NCBI GenBank assembly: GCA_003569705.1 | Contig: BGOU01000001.1 | Coordinates: 1 to 64,000, forward strand | Direction: 5' to 3' | Source of the DNA: Nitrosarchaeum sp. | GTDB taxonomy: Archaea; Thermoproteota; Nitrososphaeria; Nitrososphaerales; Nitrosopumilaceae | Length of the DNA: 64,000 bases | Shown: positions 29,771-46,824 of the stretch, piece by piece | How positions within the stretch are numbered: position 1 is the first letter of the stretch | Layout of the letters: each line of letters starts with the position of its first letter | Translations under genes and position numbers: made by a program | The notes under the pieces: model-generated | Databases searched by the model: none | What the model was told of the DNA's origin: nothing | What the model saw: the letters and a program-made list of their open reading frames with translations, nothing else

Positions 29771-29906
29771 AAAACAGCGTTATATTCGGCGGTTAAATAA
29801 TCATCGAATTTTAGCTCAAGCTAGTTAGAGAAAATTTCAAATTTACTTTTGATTTTCAGCGTATCACAAAAGATAAATTCCAAAATACGACGGGAAAATG
29901 TGTTTT

Positions 29907-31106
29907 ATGACTGAAAGAGGAATTCTTGCATTTTCCGGAGGACTAGATACATCAGTCGTAATAAAATATCTTCAAGAAGAATACAACATGGATGTCATAA
30001 CAGTAACTGTAGATGTAGGTCAGGGCGATGATCAGAAAAAAATTGAAGCTAAAGCAAAAAAACTCGGAGTAATAAAACATTACAATATAGATGCAAGAAA
30101 AGAATTTGTTGAAAATTTTATTTTTCCATCAATTAAGGCAAATGCACTTTATCAAAAAAAATATTGTCTAGCAACTGCATTAGCTAGACCACTAATTGCA
30201 GAAAAAGTTTTAGAAATTGCAAAAAAAGAAAAAGTAACAGCACTAGCTCATGGATGTTCAGGTAAAGGAAATGATCAAGTGAGATTTGACATTACATTAC
30301 GTTCTGGTTCTGATTTACCAATCATTGCACCAATTCGAGACAAAAATTTAGACAGAGAGACAGAGTTAAAGTTTGCAAAGAAACACGGAATAGAAATTGA
30401 TTCAGTAGCAAAAAGATTCAGCATTGATCAAAATTTGTGGGGACGCGCAATTGAAGGCGGAGTGTTAGAAGATCCATACAATGAACCACCTGAAGATGCA
30501 TTCATTTGGGTAAAAACAAAAAATTTACCAGACAAGCCAACATACATGGAAATTAAATTTGAAAAAGGAATACCAGTTGCAATTGATGGAAAAGTTATGG
30601 AACCTATAAAATTAATCGAGTACGTAAACAAAAAAGCAGGAGACGCAGGAGTTGGAATTGTTGATCACATTGAAGACAGAGTTGTAGGAATAAAATCTCG
30701 CGAAGTTTACGAAACTCCAGGTGCCACATGCCTTATTGAAGCTCATGCTGATTTAGAAAAAATGGTTCACACAAAACATGAAAATAAATTCAAATCAATC
30801 ATTGATGACGAGTGGGCATATCTTGCATATTCAGGATTATGGCAAGATCCACTAAAACAAGATCTTGATGCATTTATTCAAAGATCACAAAGACCAGTAT
30901 CAGGAACTGTAAAACTAAAGCTCTTCAAAGGAAGCATTCGTGTTGTGGGAAGAAAATCAGAATATTCACTGTATAGTCACAAGATCGCCACTTATGGTGC
31001 AGAATCAACTTTTGATCAAAGATTGGCAAAAGGATTTGTAGAATTGTGGGGAATTCAATCAACAGAAGCTATTAAATTACAAAAGAAAATGTCAACAAAA
31101 ACATGA
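29907..31106 (+). CDS. argG: Argininosuccinate synthase
   Basis: Ligates citrulline and aspartate with ATP. The N-type ATP pyrophosphatase loop is AFSGGLDTS. KKYCLATALARPLIA, GKGNDQVRFD and APIRD(K)NLDRETE match the family. ATG 29907 (MTERGIL) is preferred over ATG 29898. The stop TGA overlaps the ATG of lysW at 31103, so argG leads the arginine/lysine cluster. Confidence 0.94.
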   Translation: MTERGILAFSGGLDTSVVIKYLQEEYNMDVITVTVDVGQGDDQKKIEAKAKKLGVIKHYNIDARKEFVENFIFPSIKANALYQKKYCLATALARPLIAEKVLEIAKKEKVTALAHGCSGKGNDQVRFDITLRSGSDLPIIAPIRDKNLDRETELKFAKKHGIEIDSVAKRFSIDQNLWGRAIEGGVLEDPYNEPPEDAFIWVKTKNLPDKPTYMEIKFEKGIPVAIDGKVMEPIKLIEYVNKKAGDAGVGIVDHIEDRVVGIKSREVYETPGATCLIEAHADLEKMVHTKHENKFKSIIDDEWAYLAYSGLWQDPLKQDLDAFIQRSQRPVSGTVKLKLFKGSIRVVGRKSEYSLYSHKIATYGAESTFDQRLAKGFVELWGIQSTEAIKLQKKMSTKT

Positions 31107-31270
31107 ACTGTCAAGAATGTGACGCAACTCTTAACATCCCAGACGATGCCTCTGTTGGAGAAATCATCTCCTGTCCTGATTGTGGCGCCGACTTTGAGAT
31201 CGCAAAAAAAAATGGATCTACTGTTGAGCTAAAACAAGCAGAAAGTGTAGGCGAAGACTGGGGAGAGTAA
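31103..31270 (+). CDS. lysW: Amino-group carrier protein LysW (copy 1, arginine side)
   Basis: 55-residue carrier that masks the amino group of glutamate or 2-aminoadipate during arginine or lysine synthesis. Zinc ligands are C3, C6, C24 and C27. The acidic C-terminus ends EDWGE, whose final Glu side chain forms the link to the substrate. It overlaps argG (ATGA) and the ligase gene (TAATG), so translation is coupled. Confidence 0.93.
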   Translation: MNCQECDATLNIPDDASVGEIISCPDCGADFEIAKKNGSTVELKQAESVGEDWGE

Positions 31271-32127
31271 TGTCAAAAATTTGTATCGTGTTTGACCGCA
31301 TAAGAACTGAAGAAAAGATGCTTGAGAAAGAGGCATCAGATCTAGGCCACAATGCAGTAATGCTAGATGCCAAAACTACCCAAGTCAATACAGATAGTAA
31401 AAGAAATGATTTTGATTTTGGAGATGTTGTTTTAGAAAGATGTGTCAGTTATTTTAGAGGGCTCCATTTTACTGCCAGTCTTGAATTTATGGATGTACCA
31501 GTACTCAACAAATTTCAAGTTGCAAATCAATGCGGAAATAAAATGTTCATGACTCTACTTTTGAAAAAATACAACGTCCCTACACCAAAAACATATTTTT
31601 CATTTTCAAGTGAAAGTGCATCAGAAAATATAGAAAGAGTCGGATATCCACTCGTAATCAAACCAATCATAGGAAGTTGGGGCAGAGGAGTAATGCAACT
31701 AAAAGACAAAGATACTGCCGATGCATTATTTGAGATTAGAGATATCACAGACAGCCCACATGACAGAATTTTCTATCTTCAAGAATTGATAAAAAGACCA
31801 CCAAGGGACATTCGAGTTATTACAATTGGCGATGAGCCAATAGCTGCCATGTATAGAAAATCATCAGGCGGTTTTAAAACAAACATAGCATTGGGGGCAG
31901 ATCCAGAGTTATGTGAGATCACAAAAGAGATCGAAGATATATCTACAAAAGCATCAAAAGCCATGGGTGGCGGAATTTTAGGGATTGACATAATGGAAGA
32001 TGAAAAGCGAGGATTGGTAGTGCATGAGGTTAACAATACTGTAGAGTTTAAGGGGCTGTCAAGAGTTTCACGACGAAATATTCCAAAAGAAATGATAGAA
32101 TTTGCTTTAAACTATGTTAGGAAATAA
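31270..32127 (+). CDS. LysX/ArgX-family carrier ligase, probably glutamate-specific ArgX
   Basis: ATP-grasp (RimK-like) enzyme that couples an amino acid to the C-terminal Glu of LysW. ATP-grasp segments include YPLVIKPIIGSWGRGVMQL, LQELIKRPPRDIRVITIG and VVHEVNNTVEFKG. Position directly between argG/lysW and the argC/argB homologues favours the glutamate (ornithine) branch, while the paralogue at 37057 sits with homocitrate synthase. Dual specificity cannot be excluded. Confidence 0.85.
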   Translation: MSKICIVFDRIRTEEKMLEKEASDLGHNAVMLDAKTTQVNTDSKRNDFDFGDVVLERCVSYFRGLHFTASLEFMDVPVLNKFQVANQCGNKMFMTLLLKKYNVPTPKTYFSFSSESASENIERVGYPLVIKPIIGSWGRGVMQLKDKDTADALFEIRDITDSPHDRIFYLQELIKRPPRDIRVITIGDEPIAAMYRKSSGGFKTNIALGADPELCEITKEIEDISTKASKAMGGGILGIDIMEDEKRGLVVHEVNNTVEFKGLSRVSRRNIPKEMIEFALNYVRK

Positions 32128-32142
32128 ATTATAGTTCCTTAC

Positions 32143-32148
32143 GGGAGG
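32143..32148 (+). promoter_or_regulatory. Strong Shine-Dalgarno site of the argC/lysY gene
   Basis: GGGAGG, 6 bases before ATG 32155. It follows the first gap of more than 20 bases in the operon and confirms the start. Confidence 0.6.
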
Positions 32149-32154
32149 ATTATC

Positions 32155-33201
32155 ATGAAAGTCGGTGTTGTAGGAGCATCAGGTTATGTTGGAGGAGAAA
32201 CACTTCGCCTTCTAGTAAATCATCCAGATGTAGAGATCGCAATGGTCACCTCACGACAACATGTGGGAGAGTATCTCCATAGAATTCAACCCAGTTTGAA
32301 AGGATTTACCGATCTAACTTTTTCAGAATTAGATTATGACAAAATGACAGACAAGTGTGACATTGTATTTACCGCAGTTCCACATGGAACCGCAACTGAA
32401 ATTGTAAAAGCATTGTACGACAGAGGTCTAAAAGTTATAGATTTGAGTGCAGATTACAGATTGCACAATCCTGCAGATTATGATAAATGGTATGGATGGG
32501 AACATCCACATCCAGATTATTTACCAAAATCAGTATTTGGTGTTCCAGAGTTACACAGAGAACAAATCAAAAAAGCACAACTAGTTTCTTGCCCAGGATG
32601 TATGGCAGTAACTTCCATGTTAGCACTTGCACCACTTATTCGAAATGATCTAATTGATTTAGAACACATCATTGTAGATTCTAAAATTGGTTCATCCGGT
32701 GCAGGTTCTGGTTCAGGAACTGCTCATGCAATGAGGGCAGGTGTTATCAGACCATACAAGCCAGCAAAACACAGACACACTGGAGAAATAGAACAAGAGC
32801 TAAGCGAAATTGCAGGAAAGAAAATTCATGTTTCAATGAGTCCACATGCAGTGGATATAGTTCGTGGAATTTTATGTACGAATCACACATTTATGAAAAA
32901 AGATATTGAGGAAAAAGAATTATGGAGAATATATCGCGAAGCTTATGGTCAAGAAAAATTCATTAGATTAATTCGAGACAAAAAAGGATTGTATAAATTC
33001 CCAGATCCAAAATTCGTAGTCGGTTCAAACTTTTGTGATATAGGTTTTGACATAGATGAAGAAAACCACAGATTGATTGCTCTTTCAGCATCTGATAATC
33101 TAATGAAAGGTGCAGCTGGTTCTGCCATACAAAACATGAATGTCATGTGTGGTTTTGATGAAATGGATGGCTTGAGATACACACCACTTACTCCAGTATA
33201 G
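32155..33201 (+). CDS. lysY: LysW-linked semialdehyde dehydrogenase (LysY/ArgC)
   Basis: Reduces the LysW-bound acyl phosphate to the semialdehyde with NADPH. GVVGASGYVGGETLRLL is the nucleotide motif, SCPGCMAVTSM holds the catalytic Cys, and GSGTAHAMRAGV and MSPHAVDIVRG follow. Only one copy is present, so it probably serves both the glutamate and the aminoadipate branch. Confidence 0.92.
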   Translation: MKVGVVGASGYVGGETLRLLVNHPDVEIAMVTSRQHVGEYLHRIQPSLKGFTDLTFSELDYDKMTDKCDIVFTAVPHGTATEIVKALYDRGLKVIDLSADYRLHNPADYDKWYGWEHPHPDYLPKSVFGVPELHREQIKKAQLVSCPGCMAVTSMLALAPLIRNDLIDLEHIIVDSKIGSSGAGSGSGTAHAMRAGVIRPYKPAKHRHTGEIEQELSEIAGKKIHVSMSPHAVDIVRGILCTNHTFMKKDIEEKELWRIYREAYGQEKFIRLIRDKKGLYKFPDPKFVVGSNFCDIGFDIDEENHRLIALSASDNLMKGAAGSAIQNMNVMCGFDEMDGLRYTPLTPV

Positions 33202-33203
33202 AA

Positions 33204-34007
33204 ATGATCACAATCAAAATCGGTGGGAGTGTAGTAGATAATTTACATCCATCAACTATTTCAGATATTAAAAAAGTTGCAGAGACAGAAGGAATCATTA
33301 TAGTTCATGGCGGAGGAAAAGAAGTTACAAAAGTTTGTGAACAACTTGGAAAAGAAGCAAAATTTGTAACATCGCCTAGCGGAATAAAGAGCAGATACAC
33401 AGACAAAGAAACAGTAGAAATTTTTACAATGGTAATGTCTGGAAGAATAAACAAAACAATTGTTCAAATGCTTCAAAAAAATGGAATCAATGCAATTGGA
33501 CTTTCAGGTGTTGATGCCAAGGTAATTCAAGCAGAAAGGAAAAAAACACTATTAATCATTAATGAAAAAGGTCGAAAACAGGCAATTGATGGAGGCTACA
33601 CAGGCAAAATTACCAAAGTCAATTCAGATTTCATCAAATCGCTGTTAAAACAAGGTTTGACACCTGTGATTTCACCGATTGCAATTAGCGAAGAATCAGA
33701 TTTTCTCAATGTTGATGGAGACAGAGCAGCAGCATATGTAGCAGGAAGCACAGGATCAGACAAAGTATTATTCATAACAAATGTAGACGGACTTTTGATG
33801 GATGACAAACTTGTAACTAAATTAACATTAGCAGAAGCAAAGGAGATCAGACCAAAGATAGGTCCAGGTATGGAAAAGAAAATTCTTGCAGCTACTGAAG
33901 CCCTAGATATGGGAGTAAAAGAGGCACTCATTGCAAATGGTCAAAGAGAAAATCCTATATCATCGGCAATTGCACACGATAACTGTACGGTGATTCAACA
34001 TGACTGA
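33204..34007 (+). CDS. lysZ: LysW-linked amino acid kinase (LysZ/ArgB)
   Basis: Amino-acid-kinase fold. IKIGGSVVDN opens it, IIVHGGGKEVTKVCEQLGKE binds substrate, and FLNVDGDRAAAYVAG and ITNVDGLLMDDK form the ATP site. It phosphorylates the side-chain carboxylate of LysW-bound glutamate or aminoadipate. It overlaps the next gene by 8 bases. Confidence 0.92.
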   Translation: MITIKIGGSVVDNLHPSTISDIKKVAETEGIIIVHGGGKEVTKVCEQLGKEAKFVTSPSGIKSRYTDKETVEIFTMVMSGRINKTIVQMLQKNGINAIGLSGVDAKVIQAERKKTLLIINEKGRKQAIDGGYTGKITKVNSDFIKSLLKQGLTPVISPIAISEESDFLNVDGDRAAAYVAGSTGSDKVLFITNVDGLLMDDKLVTKLTLAEAKEIRPKIGPGMEKKILAATEALDMGVKEALIANGQRENPISSAIAHDNCTVIQHD

Positions 34008-35175
34008 AGATGACTTTATGGGAGCTCTGTATCAGAGATTTCCAGTTACAATTGAAAAAGGAGTGGGAGCTCATGTGTGGGATGTCAATGGTAAAGAGTA
34101 CATTGACTGTATGGGAGGATATGGTGTAGCAATCGTCGGACATCAAAACAAAAGAGTTGTCAAAGCAATCAAAGAACAGGTAGACAAAATAATTACAGTA
34201 CACAGTTCATTGTACAATAAAACAAGAGAAGAATTTCTAAAAACACTAATCAGTCTTGCACCAAAAGGACTCACTCAAGTTCATCTAAACAATAGCGGTG
34301 CAGAAGCAATAGAAGCTGCAATAAAATTTGCAAGAAAGTTCACCGGCAAAAAAGGAATGGTTGCAATGAAAGGATCCTATCATGGAAAAACACTTGGTGC
34401 TCTCACGTTAACATTTAATCCAAAATATAAAAAAGCATTCGAACCATTAGTTGAAAAAGTTTCTTTTGCATCATTTGGAGATATTGAATCTCTTCGTTCT
34501 ACAATTGATGAAGATACTGCATTTGTTATTTTAGAACCAATTCAAGGTGAAAGTGGAATCATTGTTGCACCAGATGGATTTTTGCAAGAAGTAAGAAAGC
34601 TTTGCGATGAAAAAGGAATTCTTTTGATTTTTGACGAAATACAAGCAGGATTAGGTAGAACAGGACGACTATGGGCGTGTGATCATTGGAATACTGCACC
34701 AGACATCCTATGTCTTGCAAAAGGAATTGCAGGTGGAGTTCCAATGGGTGCAACTTTAGTAAGACCAGATATTCTTGCTTCAATGAGTAAGGGAGAACAT
34801 TCTTCAACATTCGGAGGAAACCCTCTTTCATGTGCTGCAGGAATTGCAACGCTACACGCACTTACCCAAGACGGTCTGATTGAAAATTCTGAAAAAATGG
34901 GAAAGATATTCAGAGAAGGTTTGGAAAAACTAAAAGAAAAACACACCATAATTAGAGAAATCAGAGGAAAGGGATTGATGATAGGAGTAGAATTGAAATT
35001 TGAGGTAAAAGATGTCCTGATGAACCTTATGAAAGAAGGAGTTCTAATGCTGTACTCAGGCAGAAATATTCTAAGAATTTTACCACCACTAGTAATAACT
35101 AAAGAAGACATAACGAAAGTTTTAGAAACCCTAGATGTAGTACTCACTAAAGAGGAGCAGAAAAACAATGTATAA
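34000..35175 (+). CDS. lysJ: LysW-linked aminotransferase (LysJ/ArgD)
   Basis: PLP class-III aminotransferase. DCMGGYGVAIVGH, NSGAEAIEAAIKFAR, the FDEIQAGLGRTG segment and LAKGIAGGVPMGA with the PLP-binding Lys identify it. It makes LysW-bound lysine or ornithine. It overlaps both neighbours by 8 bases (lysZ and the Lrp-type gene). Confidence 0.92.
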   Translation: MTEDDFMGALYQRFPVTIEKGVGAHVWDVNGKEYIDCMGGYGVAIVGHQNKRVVKAIKEQVDKIITVHSSLYNKTREEFLKTLISLAPKGLTQVHLNNSGAEAIEAAIKFARKFTGKKGMVAMKGSYHGKTLGALTLTFNPKYKKAFEPLVEKVSFASFGDIESLRSTIDEDTAFVILEPIQGESGIIVAPDGFLQEVRKLCDEKGILLIFDEIQAGLGRTGRLWACDHWNTAPDILCLAKGIAGGVPMGATLVRPDILASMSKGEHSSTFGGNPLSCAAGIATLHALTQDGLIENSEKMGKIFREGLEKLKEKHTIIREIRGKGLMIGVELKFEVKDVLMNLMKEGVLMLYSGRNILRILPPLVITKEDITKVLETLDVVLTKEEQKNNV

Positions 35176-35587
35176 AGACAAAATAGACGAAAAAATAATA
35201 AATTATCTCAAAGAAGATTCCAGAGAATCTTTTGTAGATATTGGAAAGAAACTAAAACTATCAGAATCAGCAGTTAGAAGAAGAGTAAAAAATCTTGTAG
35301 ACAGTCAGACCATCAAAAGATTCACTGTTGAGATTGGAGAAGAAAACGCTACCAGTGCCATTGTCTTGATATCCGTAGATTCTGCAACAGACACTGCAAA
35401 AGTTTCAGAAAAACTAGCAAAATTAGAAGGAGTCAAAACAGTTTATGAAATTACAGGTCAGTATGATATCACTACAATAATTAGTGCAACAAACATTGCT
35501 GAAATAAATAACAGCATAGATGCATTAAGAAAAATTCCAGGTGTGATTGATACCAACACAGTAATTATTTTAAGAAAAGTAGCATAA
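35168..35587 (+). CDS. lysM: Lrp/AsnC-family regulator (LysM-like)
   Basis: N-terminal helix-turn-helix (ESFVDIGKKLKLSESAVRRR, about 20-40) and a C-terminal RAM/ACT-like effector domain (VYEITGQYDITTIISATNIA). Last gene of the first operon half and overlapping lysJ, like Sulfolobus LysM, which controls lysine genes. The control target is inferred from position. Confidence 0.85.
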   Translation: MYKDKIDEKIINYLKEDSRESFVDIGKKLKLSESAVRRRVKNLVDSQTIKRFTVEIGEENATSAIVLISVDSATDTAKVSEKLAKLEGVKTVYEITGQYDITTIISATNIAEINNSIDALRKIPGVIDTNTVIILRKVA

Positions 35588-35664
35588 AACGACTTTCGGT
35601 TTATAATTTCCATACTTGACTAAATTAGGATCATCACAAGTAATTTTCAGCGAAGTTAGTACGA

Positions 35665-35676
35665 ATATATTTATAT
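35665..35676 (+). promoter_or_regulatory. TATA box of the homocitrate synthase operon
   Basis: ATATATTTATAT in the 98-base gap after the Lrp-type gene. Transcription starting about 26 bases downstream would begin after the first ATG (35686), which makes the second ATG at 35704 a serious alternative start. Confidence 0.5.
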
Positions 35677-35685
35677 TCTCAATTT

Positions 35686-36870
35686 ATGTCAACGTTTTCT
35701 GTAATGAAAGATCCGAATTACTATGCAGACATTTACAACGCATATGATAAAAATCCAAAGAAAATCAGAGTACTAGACAGCACTCTAAGAGAAGGAGAAC
35801 AGCATCCAGGAGTTTCATTTACAAACAAACAGAGAATACAGATTGCATGGATGTTAGATTATTTCGGAGTAGATCAAATTGAAATTTCACCAGTAGTTTC
35901 CAAAGATCATAAAGAAGCAACTAAAACAATTATCAAACAAGGACTAAAAGCAGACATTGTATCTCATGGAAGAGCTCTCAAAGAAGACATCGACATCTCA
36001 TTAAGCTGCGATGCAAAATGGTGTGCAGCATATCTTGGAATTTCAGATATTCATCTAAAAGACAAGCTGCGAATTACAAGAGAAGAAGCAATGGAGAGAT
36101 CAGTTGAAACAGTAGAATATGCAAAATCACACGGACTAAAAATTAGATTTACAGTTGAGGACGGAAGTAGAGCAGATCCAGAATTTTTGCTGCAGATATG
36201 CAAGGCAATTGAAGAGGCAGGTGTAGATAGAATAAGTTTGCCTGATACTGTTGGAATTATGCGTCCAATAGGCATGTATAATTTTGTTAAAAAAGTAAGA
36301 GAGGCAATAGATGTTCCACTAGATGCACATGTTCACAATGACATTGGATTTGCAGTAGCTAATGCATTTTCTGCATGTGATGCAGGAGTAGATCAGATAC
36401 ATACAACAATTGACGGAATAGGAGAAAGGACAGGTATCCCACCTCTTGCAGAAGTTGCAGTAGCACTAACGTATCTTTACAAATCACCAAATGATTTCAG
36501 ATTAGATATGCTGCTAGACTTGTCAAGACTAATTGAAAATTACACTTCGATTAAACCATATGATTCAAAACCACTTGTTGGCTCTTCTGCATACAAACAC
36601 AAAGCAGGAACACATCTTGCAGCAATATTAAAAAATCCTGCAGCATATGAGCCAATCCCACCAAGAGCAGTGGGAAATACAAGAAGAATTGTCTTTGGTG
36701 AATTGGCAGGAAAAACGGGTGCCGCATACTTGATGTCAATTTTGGGGCTTCAAAAAGACGATGAGGGTGCCAAAGCAGTAGCAGCAGGTCTAAAAGAACT
36801 TAGAATGGGGGATTTAATTGAGATTCCACTAGAAGATAGGCTTGAAAAAAAGATAATTAATGATAAATAG
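35686..36870 (+). CDS. Homocitrate synthase (or related LeuA-family acyltransferase)
   Basis: Condenses acetyl-CoA with 2-oxoglutarate to start the aminoadipate route. DSTLREGEQHPGVSFT is the metal- and substrate-binding start, DAHVHNDIGFAVANAFSACD the HxHND signature, and SSAYKHKAGTHLAAIL a C-terminal segment. Its place before lysW2, lysX and lysK favours homocitrate over isopropylmalate or citramalate synthase. ATG 35704 may be the true start. Confidence 0.87.
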   Translation: MSTFSVMKDPNYYADIYNAYDKNPKKIRVLDSTLREGEQHPGVSFTNKQRIQIAWMLDYFGVDQIEISPVVSKDHKEATKTIIKQGLKADIVSHGRALKEDIDISLSCDAKWCAAYLGISDIHLKDKLRITREEAMERSVETVEYAKSHGLKIRFTVEDGSRADPEFLLQICKAIEEAGVDRISLPDTVGIMRPIGMYNFVKKVREAIDVPLDAHVHNDIGFAVANAFSACDAGVDQIHTTIDGIGERTGIPPLAEVAVALTYLYKSPNDFRLDMLLDLSRLIENYTSIKPYDSKPLVGSSAYKHKAGTHLAAILKNPAAYEPIPPRAVGNTRRIVFGELAGKTGAAYLMSILGLQKDDEGAKAVAAGLKELRMGDLIEIPLEDRLEKKIINDK

Positions 36871-36892
36871 AGAGGAAATGTGAGAAGAAAAC

Positions 36893-37060
36893 ATGTCAAA
36901 ATGTGAAGAATGTGATGCAGATATTTCCATTCCAAATGATGCAGTGGAAGGAGAAATTGTAACATGTCCGGAATGTGGCGCAAGTTTTGAATTAGCAAAA
37001 GGCTCAAACGGTTTCCAATTAAAGCCTGCCCAATCGGTTGGCGAGGATTGGGGACAGTGA
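36893..37060 (+). CDS. lysW: Amino-group carrier protein LysW (copy 2, lysine side), C-terminal Gln
   Basis: 55 residues with zinc ligands C4, C7, C25 and C28 and a LysW-like acidic tail. The last residues read EDWGQ (GGA CAG TGA) where characterised carriers end EDWGE. The side chain of the final Glu is the attachment point in known LysW, so an amide there should block the usual ligation unless it is deamidated or another carboxylate is used. A one-base sequence error (CAG for GAG) is possible. It overlaps the ligase start by 4 bases. Confidence 0.9.
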   Translation: MSKCEECDADISIPNDAVEGEIVTCPECGASFELAKGSNGFQLKPAQSVGEDWGQ

Positions 37061-37905
37061 GTCCTGACATTACAATTCTTTATGATACCATCCGTTGGGA
37101 AGAAAAAGCTCTGTTAGAAGCTGGCAAAAAAAAGAACATCAACATACAGATGGTTGACTGTAAGAATTTAGCAATAGATTTAGATAAAAAACCAGAAGAT
37201 TACGGACCAGTTATTCAAAGGTGTGTAAGCTATTATCGAAATCTACATTCAACTGCAGCACTTGAAGGGATGGGTGTAAATGTAATTAATTGTCTAAATA
37301 CAGGAATTTTTGCAGGAAATAAATTATTTACACATATGTTACTAAAAAAATACGGAGTTCCAACACCATATGCAGCTGTTGCATTTTCAAAAGATGCAGT
37401 AATAGAACATCTAGAAACACACGGGTATCCAAAAGTGATCAAACCAACAGTTGGCAGTTGGGGCAGATTGATTTCAAAATTAAATGATAAAGATTCAGCG
37501 GAGGGAATTATTGAAAGCAGAGAGGCAATGTACCCAATATATCAAGTTCATTATTTAGAAGAATTTGTCAACAGACCACCAAGGGATATTAGAGCAATAA
37601 TGGTTGGAGATAAAATAGTTGCAGCAATTTACAGAACTTCAGGAAATGGAAATTGGAAAACGAACATGGCACTGGGTGGAACAGCAGAAGAATGTAAAGT
37701 AACACCAGAGATGGAAGAGATGTGCATCAAGGCAAAAAATGCAGTTCAAGGAGACATTGTAGGAGTAGATTTGATGGAGAGTAATGAACGTGGACTAGTA
37801 GTTCACGAGGTTAACAATACAACTGAATATAAAAATACGGTAAGAGTGTGTGGAGTAGACATACCTTCCTTAATGATTGATTACGTAATGAAAAAGAACA
37901 AGTGA
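37057..37905 (+). CDS. lysX: LysX-family carrier ligase, probably 2-aminoadipate-specific
   Basis: RimK-like ATP-grasp paralogue of the protein at 31270. YPKVIKPTVGSWGRLISKL, LEEFVNRPPRDIRAIMVG and VVHEVNNTTEYKN align along the length. The two proteins differ just after the NNT motif (EYKN here, EFKG there), a region near the substrate site. GTG 37057 overlaps the lysW2 stop and is preferred over TTG 37048. Confidence 0.87.
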   Translation: MSPDITILYDTIRWEEKALLEAGKKKNINIQMVDCKNLAIDLDKKPEDYGPVIQRCVSYYRNLHSTAALEGMGVNVINCLNTGIFAGNKLFTHMLLKKYGVPTPYAAVAFSKDAVIEHLETHGYPKVIKPTVGSWGRLISKLNDKDSAEGIIESREAMYPIYQVHYLEEFVNRPPRDIRAIMVGDKIVAAIYRTSGNGNWKTNMALGGTAEECKVTPEMEEMCIKAKNAVQGDIVGVDLMESNERGLVVHEVNNTTEYKNTVRVCGVDIPSLMIDYVMKKNK

Positions 37906-37908
37906 GAA

Positions 37909-39036
37909 TTGGAAACAACATTTACAGTCACACCAAGATTTGCAGTGAAGATGCTTGAAAAGGCACTTCGATTGTACACGCCCTCACTCAGTGAAAAAAC
38001 AATGGCTGAATTTCTTGCAGACAAATGTGATGATTTGGGATTTGAAGATATTCACATAGATGAGGTAGGCAACATTATTGCAAAAAAAGGTACAGGTTCA
38101 CCAAAAATATTACTTTGTGGACACATGGATGTCGTACCTGGAAAAGTCAAAGTTAGAAAAGAAGGAGATTCACTTTACGGTCGCGGTGCATCAGATGCAA
38201 AGGCCCCATTAATGGCAATGTTGTTTGCAGCAGCTTCAGTTCAAAACAATAACGGCACCATAATTTTTGTCGGCACAGTAGATGAGGAGGGAAATGCCAC
38301 CGGAGTAAAAAATCTAGTCAAGAACCACATTGATGTAGATTATGCAGTATTTGGAGAACCAAGTGGAATAAAACAAGTAACAATTGCTTACAAAGGGAGA
38401 TTGGCAATTAATCTCAAAGTAAGTGTGGTAGATAGTGCACATGCAAGTGCACCTTGGCTTTCAAAAAATGCCATTGAGGAAACAATGATCTTTTCAAAAG
38501 AGCTCAAAGAAGGTTTAGAGTCAGGTCAGGAGACAAAAAGTAAAGGAATGCTACTAACTGCAACACTAACTGAGATTAACGGAGGAACAAGCCACAATGT
38601 CACACCAAAAGAATGCGTTTCAACTTTTGATATTAGAATTCCTGTAGATACAAATTGCAAAATAGTAGAACAGAAAATTTCAGGACTAGTAAATGAAATA
38701 TCTCAAAGAAGAAAAGTTGAGGCATACTATTCAATTATAGATGAGACAGAACCTTTTGAAGCACCACATGATTCTGCCATAGTCAGAGCATTCACTTTGG
38801 GAGTTATGGATGTAGAACATACAAGACCAACTTTAATTAGAAAAACTGGAACTGGAGACATGAATGTAATAGGAAATCAATGGAAGATTCCCGTAGTTAC
38901 ATATGGGCCAGGCGATCCCCATCAAGCTCACACAATAGATGAAAGGGTATCAATTGATGAATACCTAAGGGGAATTGAAATTTTAAAGAGAATGATACAC
39001 CATTTAAAAAGACTACACGATAAAAATATGCAGTAA
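37909..39036 (+). CDS. lysK: LysW-lysine/ornithine hydrolase (LysK)
   Basis: M20-family zinc peptidase that releases lysine or ornithine from LysW. Metal-site segments are LCGHMDVVPG, GRGASDAKAPLMAM, GTVDEEGNATGV and FGEPSG. TTG 37909 follows the lysX stop by 3 bases. The only such hydrolase in the cluster, so it may serve both branches. Its TAA overlaps the dphB ATG. Confidence 0.9.
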   Translation: METTFTVTPRFAVKMLEKALRLYTPSLSEKTMAEFLADKCDDLGFEDIHIDEVGNIIAKKGTGSPKILLCGHMDVVPGKVKVRKEGDSLYGRGASDAKAPLMAMLFAAASVQNNNGTIIFVGTVDEEGNATGVKNLVKNHIDVDYAVFGEPSGIKQVTIAYKGRLAINLKVSVVDSAHASAPWLSKNAIEETMIFSKELKEGLESGQETKSKGMLLTATLTEINGGTSHNVTPKECVSTFDIRIPVDTNCKIVEQKISGLVNEISQRRKVEAYYSIIDETEPFEAPHDSAIVRAFTLGVMDVEHTRPTLIRKTGTGDMNVIGNQWKIPVVTYGPGDPHQAHTIDERVSIDEYLRGIEILKRMIHHLKRLHDKNMQ

Positions 39037-46140: not shown

Positions 46141-46824
46141 TCAAAGATGAAATAATAATTTGAAATTATTGTAAAAATTATTCATATTGTTTTTGACAAT
46201 TGAAATATTTTCATCAATATCAGAACGAATTTTTTGGGGATCGATGTATGGTATTTGTTCTAGTTTTTCCCGAGTCTTATCAAGCCAAAGATTAACCATT
46301 TCAGCATTTACTTCTAGGTGAAATTGTAACCCAATTGCACTATTAATTTGAAATGCCTGATTTTGATAATTTTCAGAGTGCACCAATCTTACTGCCCCTT
46401 CAGGCAAATCAAACGTGTCACCGTGCCAATGAAATACAGTAAAAGGGTTTGTAAACCCAGAAAACAATTTAGAATCAGTATCAATTTTCAAATCATGGTA
46501 AAATCCAATTTCTTTTTTTGGACCACGGTATACTTTTCCTCCAAAAGTTTTTGCAATCAATTGCGAGCCTAAACAAATTCCAAGTACAGGAATATCGTCA
46601 TCTACTGTTTTTTTAATCAGTTTTTGTTCTGCCTGCAAATAAGGCAAATCCTCATTAGCACTTTCAGGAGCACCTAAAATTACTAGAAGCGAATATTTTT
46701 TTTCCGGAAGTTTCTCATGTTTTGCATTAACTGAATGAATGGTAAATCCGTCATTGGCTAAAAGTTCACCCAGGTAGCCAGATCCTTCTGTTCTTGTGTT
46801 TTGTACAACTAAAACTTCAGACAC
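46141..46824 (-). CDS. Class I glutamine amidotransferase-like protein
   Basis: GATase1 fold like GMP synthase small domains: nucleophile C84 in LGICLGSQLIA, substrate loop FHWHGDTFDLP, and His/Glu in GLQFHLEVN. No synthetase partner is adjacent, so it may be a stand-alone hydrolase or transferase of the family. Confidence 0.8.
   Translation of the reverse strand: MSEVLVVQNTRTEGSGYLGELLANDGFTIHSVNAKHEKLPEKKYSLLVILGAPESANEDLPYLQAEQKLIKKTVDDDIPVLGICLGSQLIAKTFGGKVYRGPKKEIGFYHDLKIDTDSKLFSGFTNPFTVFHWHGDTFDLPEGAVRLVHSENYQNQAFQINSAIGLQFHLEVNAEMVNLWLDKTREKLEQIPYIDPQKIRSDIDENISIVKNNMNNFYNNFKLLFHL

Follow-up and report, generated by a model that had tools for sequence, protein, structure and literature searches.

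The window analyzed here, the whole stretch of 64,000 nucleotides from Nitrosarchaeum sp., carries on its + strand an arginine/lysine operon that extends from argG through LysK (29898–39036). The arginine-side genes are argG (29898–31106, +), the amino-group carrier LysW1 (31103–31270, +), whose translation ends in EDWGE, and the arginine-side ligase LysX1/ArgX (31270–32127, +; TIGR02144). Downstream lie three enzymes common to both branches, namely the LysY/ArgC reductase (32155–33201, +; one copy per operon), the LysZ kinase (33204–34007, +; above the cut-off of NF010662, [LysW]-aminoadipate/[LysW]-glutamate kinase) and the LysJ/ArgD aminotransferase (34000–35175, +; above the cut-off of TIGR00707), followed by an Lrp-type regulator (35168–35587, +). 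A homocitrate synthase-like enzyme (35686–36870, +), which scores 374 bits against TIGR02146, below the cut-off of 413.55, is encoded directly upstream of the second, lysine-side carrier LysW2 (36893–37060, +). LysW2 is adjoined by the ATP-grasp ligase LysX2 (37057–37905, +), which has a GTG start and a GSWGR motif, and the operon ends with LysK (37909–39036, +), an M20 [LysW]-lysine/ornithine hydrolase whose closest solved structure is 5xoy and which is considered below as a candidate deamidase. Two carrier/ligase pairs are served by one set of LysY, LysZ, LysJ, and LysK; the genome holds two copies of LysW and a single copy of LysK. A free-standing class-I glutamine amidotransferase-like protein is also encoded in the window (46141–46824, −), ~9 kb from LysW2.

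The two ligases differ at the specificity motif, which reads NCLNTG in LysX2 (CLNTG at its core) and NKFQVA in LysX1 (NKFQV). Asn-Thr at this motif is a feature of the LysX of Sulfolobus (PMC10433800), and by this sequence signature LysX2 is of the aminoadipate type; because Asn-Thr is present in LysX2 and absent from LysX1, its partner carrier is assigned to the aminoadipate side.

The terminal glutamine of LysW2

LysW2 is a protein of 55 aa (MSKCEECDADISIPNDAVEGEIVTCPECGASFELAKGSNGFQLKPAQSVGEDWGQ) with LysW homologues of solved structure (3vpb, 3wwl, 5k2m). It scores 89 bits against the LysW/ArgW profile NF041070, above the curated cut-off of 75; against the older profile TIGR01206 it falls below the cut-off (34.2 vs. 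53.2), as LysW1 does too. Its four zinc-ligand Cys residues, arranged as CEEC and CPEC, are invariant in the LysW alignment. The C-terminus is EDWGQ: a CAG codon for Gln (37055–37057, +), read where the substrate-bearing Glu is expected, is followed by the stop codon TGA (37058–37060). The translations of 36893–37060 and 31103–31270 bear out the original prediction that the lysine-side carrier ends in EDWGQ and the arginine-side carrier in EDWGE, with the correction that the Gln codon, placed at 37056–37058, lies one base upstream of that position.

The primary translation product of LysW2 has Gln in place of the C-terminal substrate-bearing Glu, so we class it as a variant with a terminal Gln and the function of a LysW. 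It resembles the LysW/ArgW carriers of Thermus, Sulfolobus, Thermococcus, and haloarchaea in size, zinc-ribbon Cys residues and EDWG motif, and in its placement in an operon with LysX, LysY, LysZ, LysJ, and LysK; it differs from these known carriers in the encoded Gln, hence in having no loading γ-carboxylate in the primary product. To our knowledge, all characterized LysW carriers have a substrate-bearing Glu at this position, and a literature search for the string EDWGQ found no paper.

The GTG start codon of LysX2 (37057–37059) overlaps the end of LysW2, but the C that makes the terminal codon one for Gln rather than Glu is not fixed by this overlap. An overlapping start that forces Gln was rejected on two grounds: natural Glu variants retain the overlap (GAGTGA), and Gln copies stopped by TAA have no such overlap.

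Gln- and Glu-ended carriers among archaea

Of 13 genomes searched in the same genus, 12 contain the EDWGQ-stop pattern, as do 199 of 300 in the class as a whole. Among ammonia-oxidizing archaea it is nearly universal, and at the loci read it always forms the final residues of a LysW. The same Gln codon is seen across three families, and the named records among the matches listed include Nitrosopumilus, Nitrosopelagicus, Nitrosotenuis, Nitrosotalea, and Cenarchaeum as well as Nitrososphaera, Nitrosocosmicus, Nitrosopolaris, and Nitrosocaldus. A sequencing or assembly error at the Gln codon of the window, for which nothing speaks except that CAG and GAG differ by one base, can be set aside with near certainty, since CAG recurs in those 12 same-genus genomes and in three families; nor do lysine-locus homologues uniformly end in Glu, the outcome that the original prediction had named as contrary to it. 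Matches in Chloroflexi and Streptacidiphilus contigs were discarded as chance, the codon after CAR being TGG and the proteins unrelated. The terminal Gln of LysW2 is a genuine variant, both recurrent and ancient.

Most Nitrosopumilaceae have Gln at the end of the lysine copy and Glu at the end of the arginine copy, so that the proposal of a consistent Gln in the copy beside homocitrate synthase holds for most of this family; it does not hold for four genomes of genus g14 (G147, G148, G161, G169), which have Glu at the lysine locus, or for the Nitrososphaeraceae genus g30, in which the polarity is reversed, the arginine-side carrier ending in Gln and the lysine-side carrier in Glu. The reversal in g30 also rules out that Gln is bound to the lysine substrate, and the split between paralogues in Nitrosopumilaceae may reflect history rather than function.

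Other genomes have only Gln-ended carriers. Nitrososphaera (g28) has two LysW, both Gln-ended, and Nitrosocosmicus (g24, a genus identified through the match of its LysW sequence to named records) has a single LysW, Gln-ended in each of 14 genomes; the two complete Nitrosocosmicus genomes read contain argG, both ligases, LysY, LysZ, LysJ, homocitrate synthase, and LysK. At the Nitrosocosmicus loci (L161, L162) LysW1 has been lost and LysX1 lies directly after argG. With this loss the one remaining carrier has to work with both ligases. When the whole phylum was scanned, EDWGQ also turned up in other classes, including families f30, f35, f53, and f56, where each genome has one detectable LysW (two in f56), and this distribution excludes Gln as a trait of ammonia oxidizers only. 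The terminal residue varies within these families: genera g84 and g134 of f35 are Gln-ended and g109 is Glu-ended, genus g78 of f30 is Gln-ended and g105 is mixed, and in genus g121 of f53 one species has Glu and one has Gln. The f35 and f30 archaea with a sole Gln carrier retain the full pathway.

These genomes bear on the suggestion that LysW2-Gln no longer carries and acts as a regulator or scaffold, lysine being built on LysW1-Glu. A Glu-ended LysW1 is indeed present in the window, but we consider such a role very improbable: the Gln-ended LysW is the only one in Nitrosocosmicus, both carriers of Nitrososphaera end in Gln, f35, f30, and f53 include genomes whose single LysW is Gln-ended, and LysW2 itself retains EDWG and all zinc Cys residues beside an intact LysX2. 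Outside the window's own genome, a loss of carrier function is contradicted by the genomes in which all LysW are Gln-ended yet all pathway enzymes are kept.

Three further arrangements were seen. The carriers of f31 and f43 (L367, L369, L370) end in EDYGE, with Tyr for Trp and the terminal Glu kept. In G005 (genus g3, Cenarchaeum group), G+C-rich repeats replace LysW2 between homocitrate synthase and LysX2 (L329, ~2602–2815), and the sole remaining carrier is the Glu-ended LysW1. In G006, probably Cenarchaeum symbiosum, the Glu-ended LysW1 (L328, 7887–8045) has no other pathway gene within 16 kb and lies ~1.37 Mb (record coordinates) away from the LysW2-LysX2-LysK cluster.

Glu/Gln switching and the partner ligase

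Among 107 distinct LysW, gathered by protein search with no selection on the C-terminus and with Bacteria and Euryarchaeota outside the survey, the last residue is Glu in 54 and Gln in 53, and nothing else. A tree of 264 LysX partners requires the terminal residue to have switched between Glu and Gln at least 16 times, both ways and in arginine-side as well as lysine-side carriers; these counts are minima on a FastTree ligase phylogeny whose tip states come from assembled genomes, many of them metagenomic, and the direction of a switch hinges on midpoint rooting. Ten independent switch pairs fall on well-supported branches of this tree, and none of 787 LysX residue traits tracked the switch (the best reached ~4.1 vs. 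0.5 of 10 pairs). The EDWGE-recognizing motif GSWGR is present in 240 of 241 ligases, whichever the partner carrier. Within Nitrosopumilaceae, two Glu/Gln changes compare with three C/G changes at the neighboring silent base, a rate that is not clearly lower, so that selection for Gln itself gains no clear support from this comparison. The restriction to Glu and Gln, together with the unchanged ligase, is as expected if both residues yield the same mature protein, the amide being hydrolyzed.

Alternatively, LysX2 could charge LysW2-Gln with no prior deamidation. It might activate the side-chain amide, in an ATP-dependent transamidation that releases ammonia, or it might attach the substrate to the α-carboxylate, the latter being the use of the C-terminal carboxylate that had been suggested from the window. 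For PupQ in Dop, the amide oxygen has been suggested to attack ATP (PMC8599861), and the C-terminal carboxylate is available in the Glu and Gln forms alike. If the α-carboxylate were used, however, residues beyond Glu and Gln would be expected, and none occurs among the 107 LysW; LysX is unchanged across at least 16 switches, the common downstream enzymes would face two geometries, and the E54A variant of haloarchaeal ArgW is inactive (PMC10433800). Direct loading is therefore judged unlikely, its α-carboxylate form included. Were it to occur, it would involve an ATP-grasp ligase chemistry not known for LysX, acting on a glutamine amide or on a C-terminal carboxylate.

A proposed Gln proform and its deamidation

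In Thermus and archaea the substrate amino group joins the γ-carboxylate of the terminal Glu, and in a haloarchaeon the change of Glu54 of ArgW to Ala (E54A) results in arginine auxotrophy (PMC10433800); together these observations indicate that a side-chain carboxylate is needed, and Gln has none. Nitrososphaera viennensis grows in pure culture on ammonium, bicarbonate, pyruvate, and vitamins, without amino acids (PMC4129164), and we infer that the complete g28 genome G303 (2,527,938 bases; G+C 53–54% at its two loci) is probably of this species. Because lineages with only Gln carriers retain the pathway and N. viennensis grows without amino acids, the Gln carrier must be usable. Most ammonia-oxidizing archaea appear to make lysine and arginine on a carrier for which the gene does not specify the essential residue. 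These archaea are very abundant in the sea and in soil.

Deamidation fits best among the three readings of a Gln carrier that the original prediction had offered, and LysW2 probably works as a Glu carrier following deamidation by some route. LysW2, as the α-aminoadipate carrier of the lysine branch, would be translated as a Gln-terminated proform, and before LysX2 loads it, its terminal Gln would be hydrolyzed at the side-chain amide to give Glu. If so, a primary pathway includes a hidden activation step. Current pathway models and annotation take Gln-ended LysW as ready-made carriers.

LysK would be the likeliest and most economical catalyst of this hydrolysis. Enzymes of the LysK family split the amide between the γ-carbonyl of the last residue of LysW and lysine or ornithine, and LysW-Gln, written as LysW-γ-Glu-NH2, would present LysK with its usual substrate, but with ammonia, rather than lysine or ornithine, as the group to be released. 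Deamidation would take place once per carrier molecule, the carrier then being recycled as Glu, so that even a slow LysK activity would suffice; and as every complete LysW pathway needs LysK, no additional gene would be required. Such an activity would also account for the fact that unrelated lineages have switched repeatedly and reversibly between Glu and Gln. Almost all of the LysK of the window aligns to 5xoy, and the M20 positions for metal and catalysis are retained; the M20 columns HxD, ASDAK, EE, GEPS, and the C-terminal His are at least 98% conserved in 117 LysK relatives drawn from Gln, Glu, and mixed loci. LysK and the [LysW]-lysine hydrolase 5xoy thus have the same M20 residues, whereas deamidation of LysW-Gln is a proposal made here, of which no report was found. 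We give about an even chance to LysK being the deamidating enzyme. Our best explanation of the locus as a whole, that LysW2 is a working aminoadipate carrier made as a Gln proform, with the amide hydrolyzed before loading and most likely by LysK, is one for which we find belief and doubt equally balanced. Points that weigh against it include the leaving group for which LysK evolved, a large amino acid, and the mostly differing states of the paralogues in Nitrosopumilaceae (LysW2 Gln, LysW1 Glu), which a free equivalence of Glu and Gln leaves unexplained.

The conversion of LysW-Gln to LysW-Glu might also be due to another protein deamidase, or to slow spontaneous deamidation, with no part played by LysK. 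Every sequence fact that favors deamidation is consistent with this, and dedicated protein glutamine deamidases exist, of which Dop is an example (PMC8599861). No deamidase is present, however, among the recognized genes of the operons read, and repeated switching in unrelated lineages would require the enzyme everywhere; the Pup-ligase/Dop family PF03136, the sole deamidase family searched, was found in none of 32 Gln-bearing genomes and was detected in the Corynebacterium glutamicum control, which speaks against a Dop homologue as the LysW deamidase in those genomes. We regard a route independent of LysK as possible but rather doubtful.

The closest parallel to hydrolysis of the LysW-Gln amide by LysK comes from Pup-Gln of Mycobacterium and other actinobacteria. 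Pup and LysW are alike in being a small carrier or tag, in loading through the γ-carboxylate, and in ending in Gln or Glu according to species, Pup being encoded with Gln in some species only (PMC8599861). A single enzyme, Dop, deamidates PupQ and also cuts the Pup isopeptide bond (PMC8599861), a pairing of activities whose counterpart for LysW is hypothetical, and LysW2 has the C-terminal Gln that Pup/Dop-type activation calls for. If deamidation is true, LysW would join Pup as a second, unrelated example of processing that equalizes encoded Glu and Gln. The two systems differ in the enzyme, the candidate LysW deamidase being a metal-dependent M20 hydrolase and Dop a relative of glutamine synthetase, and in the cargo, which is a metabolite for LysW and a protein for Pup.
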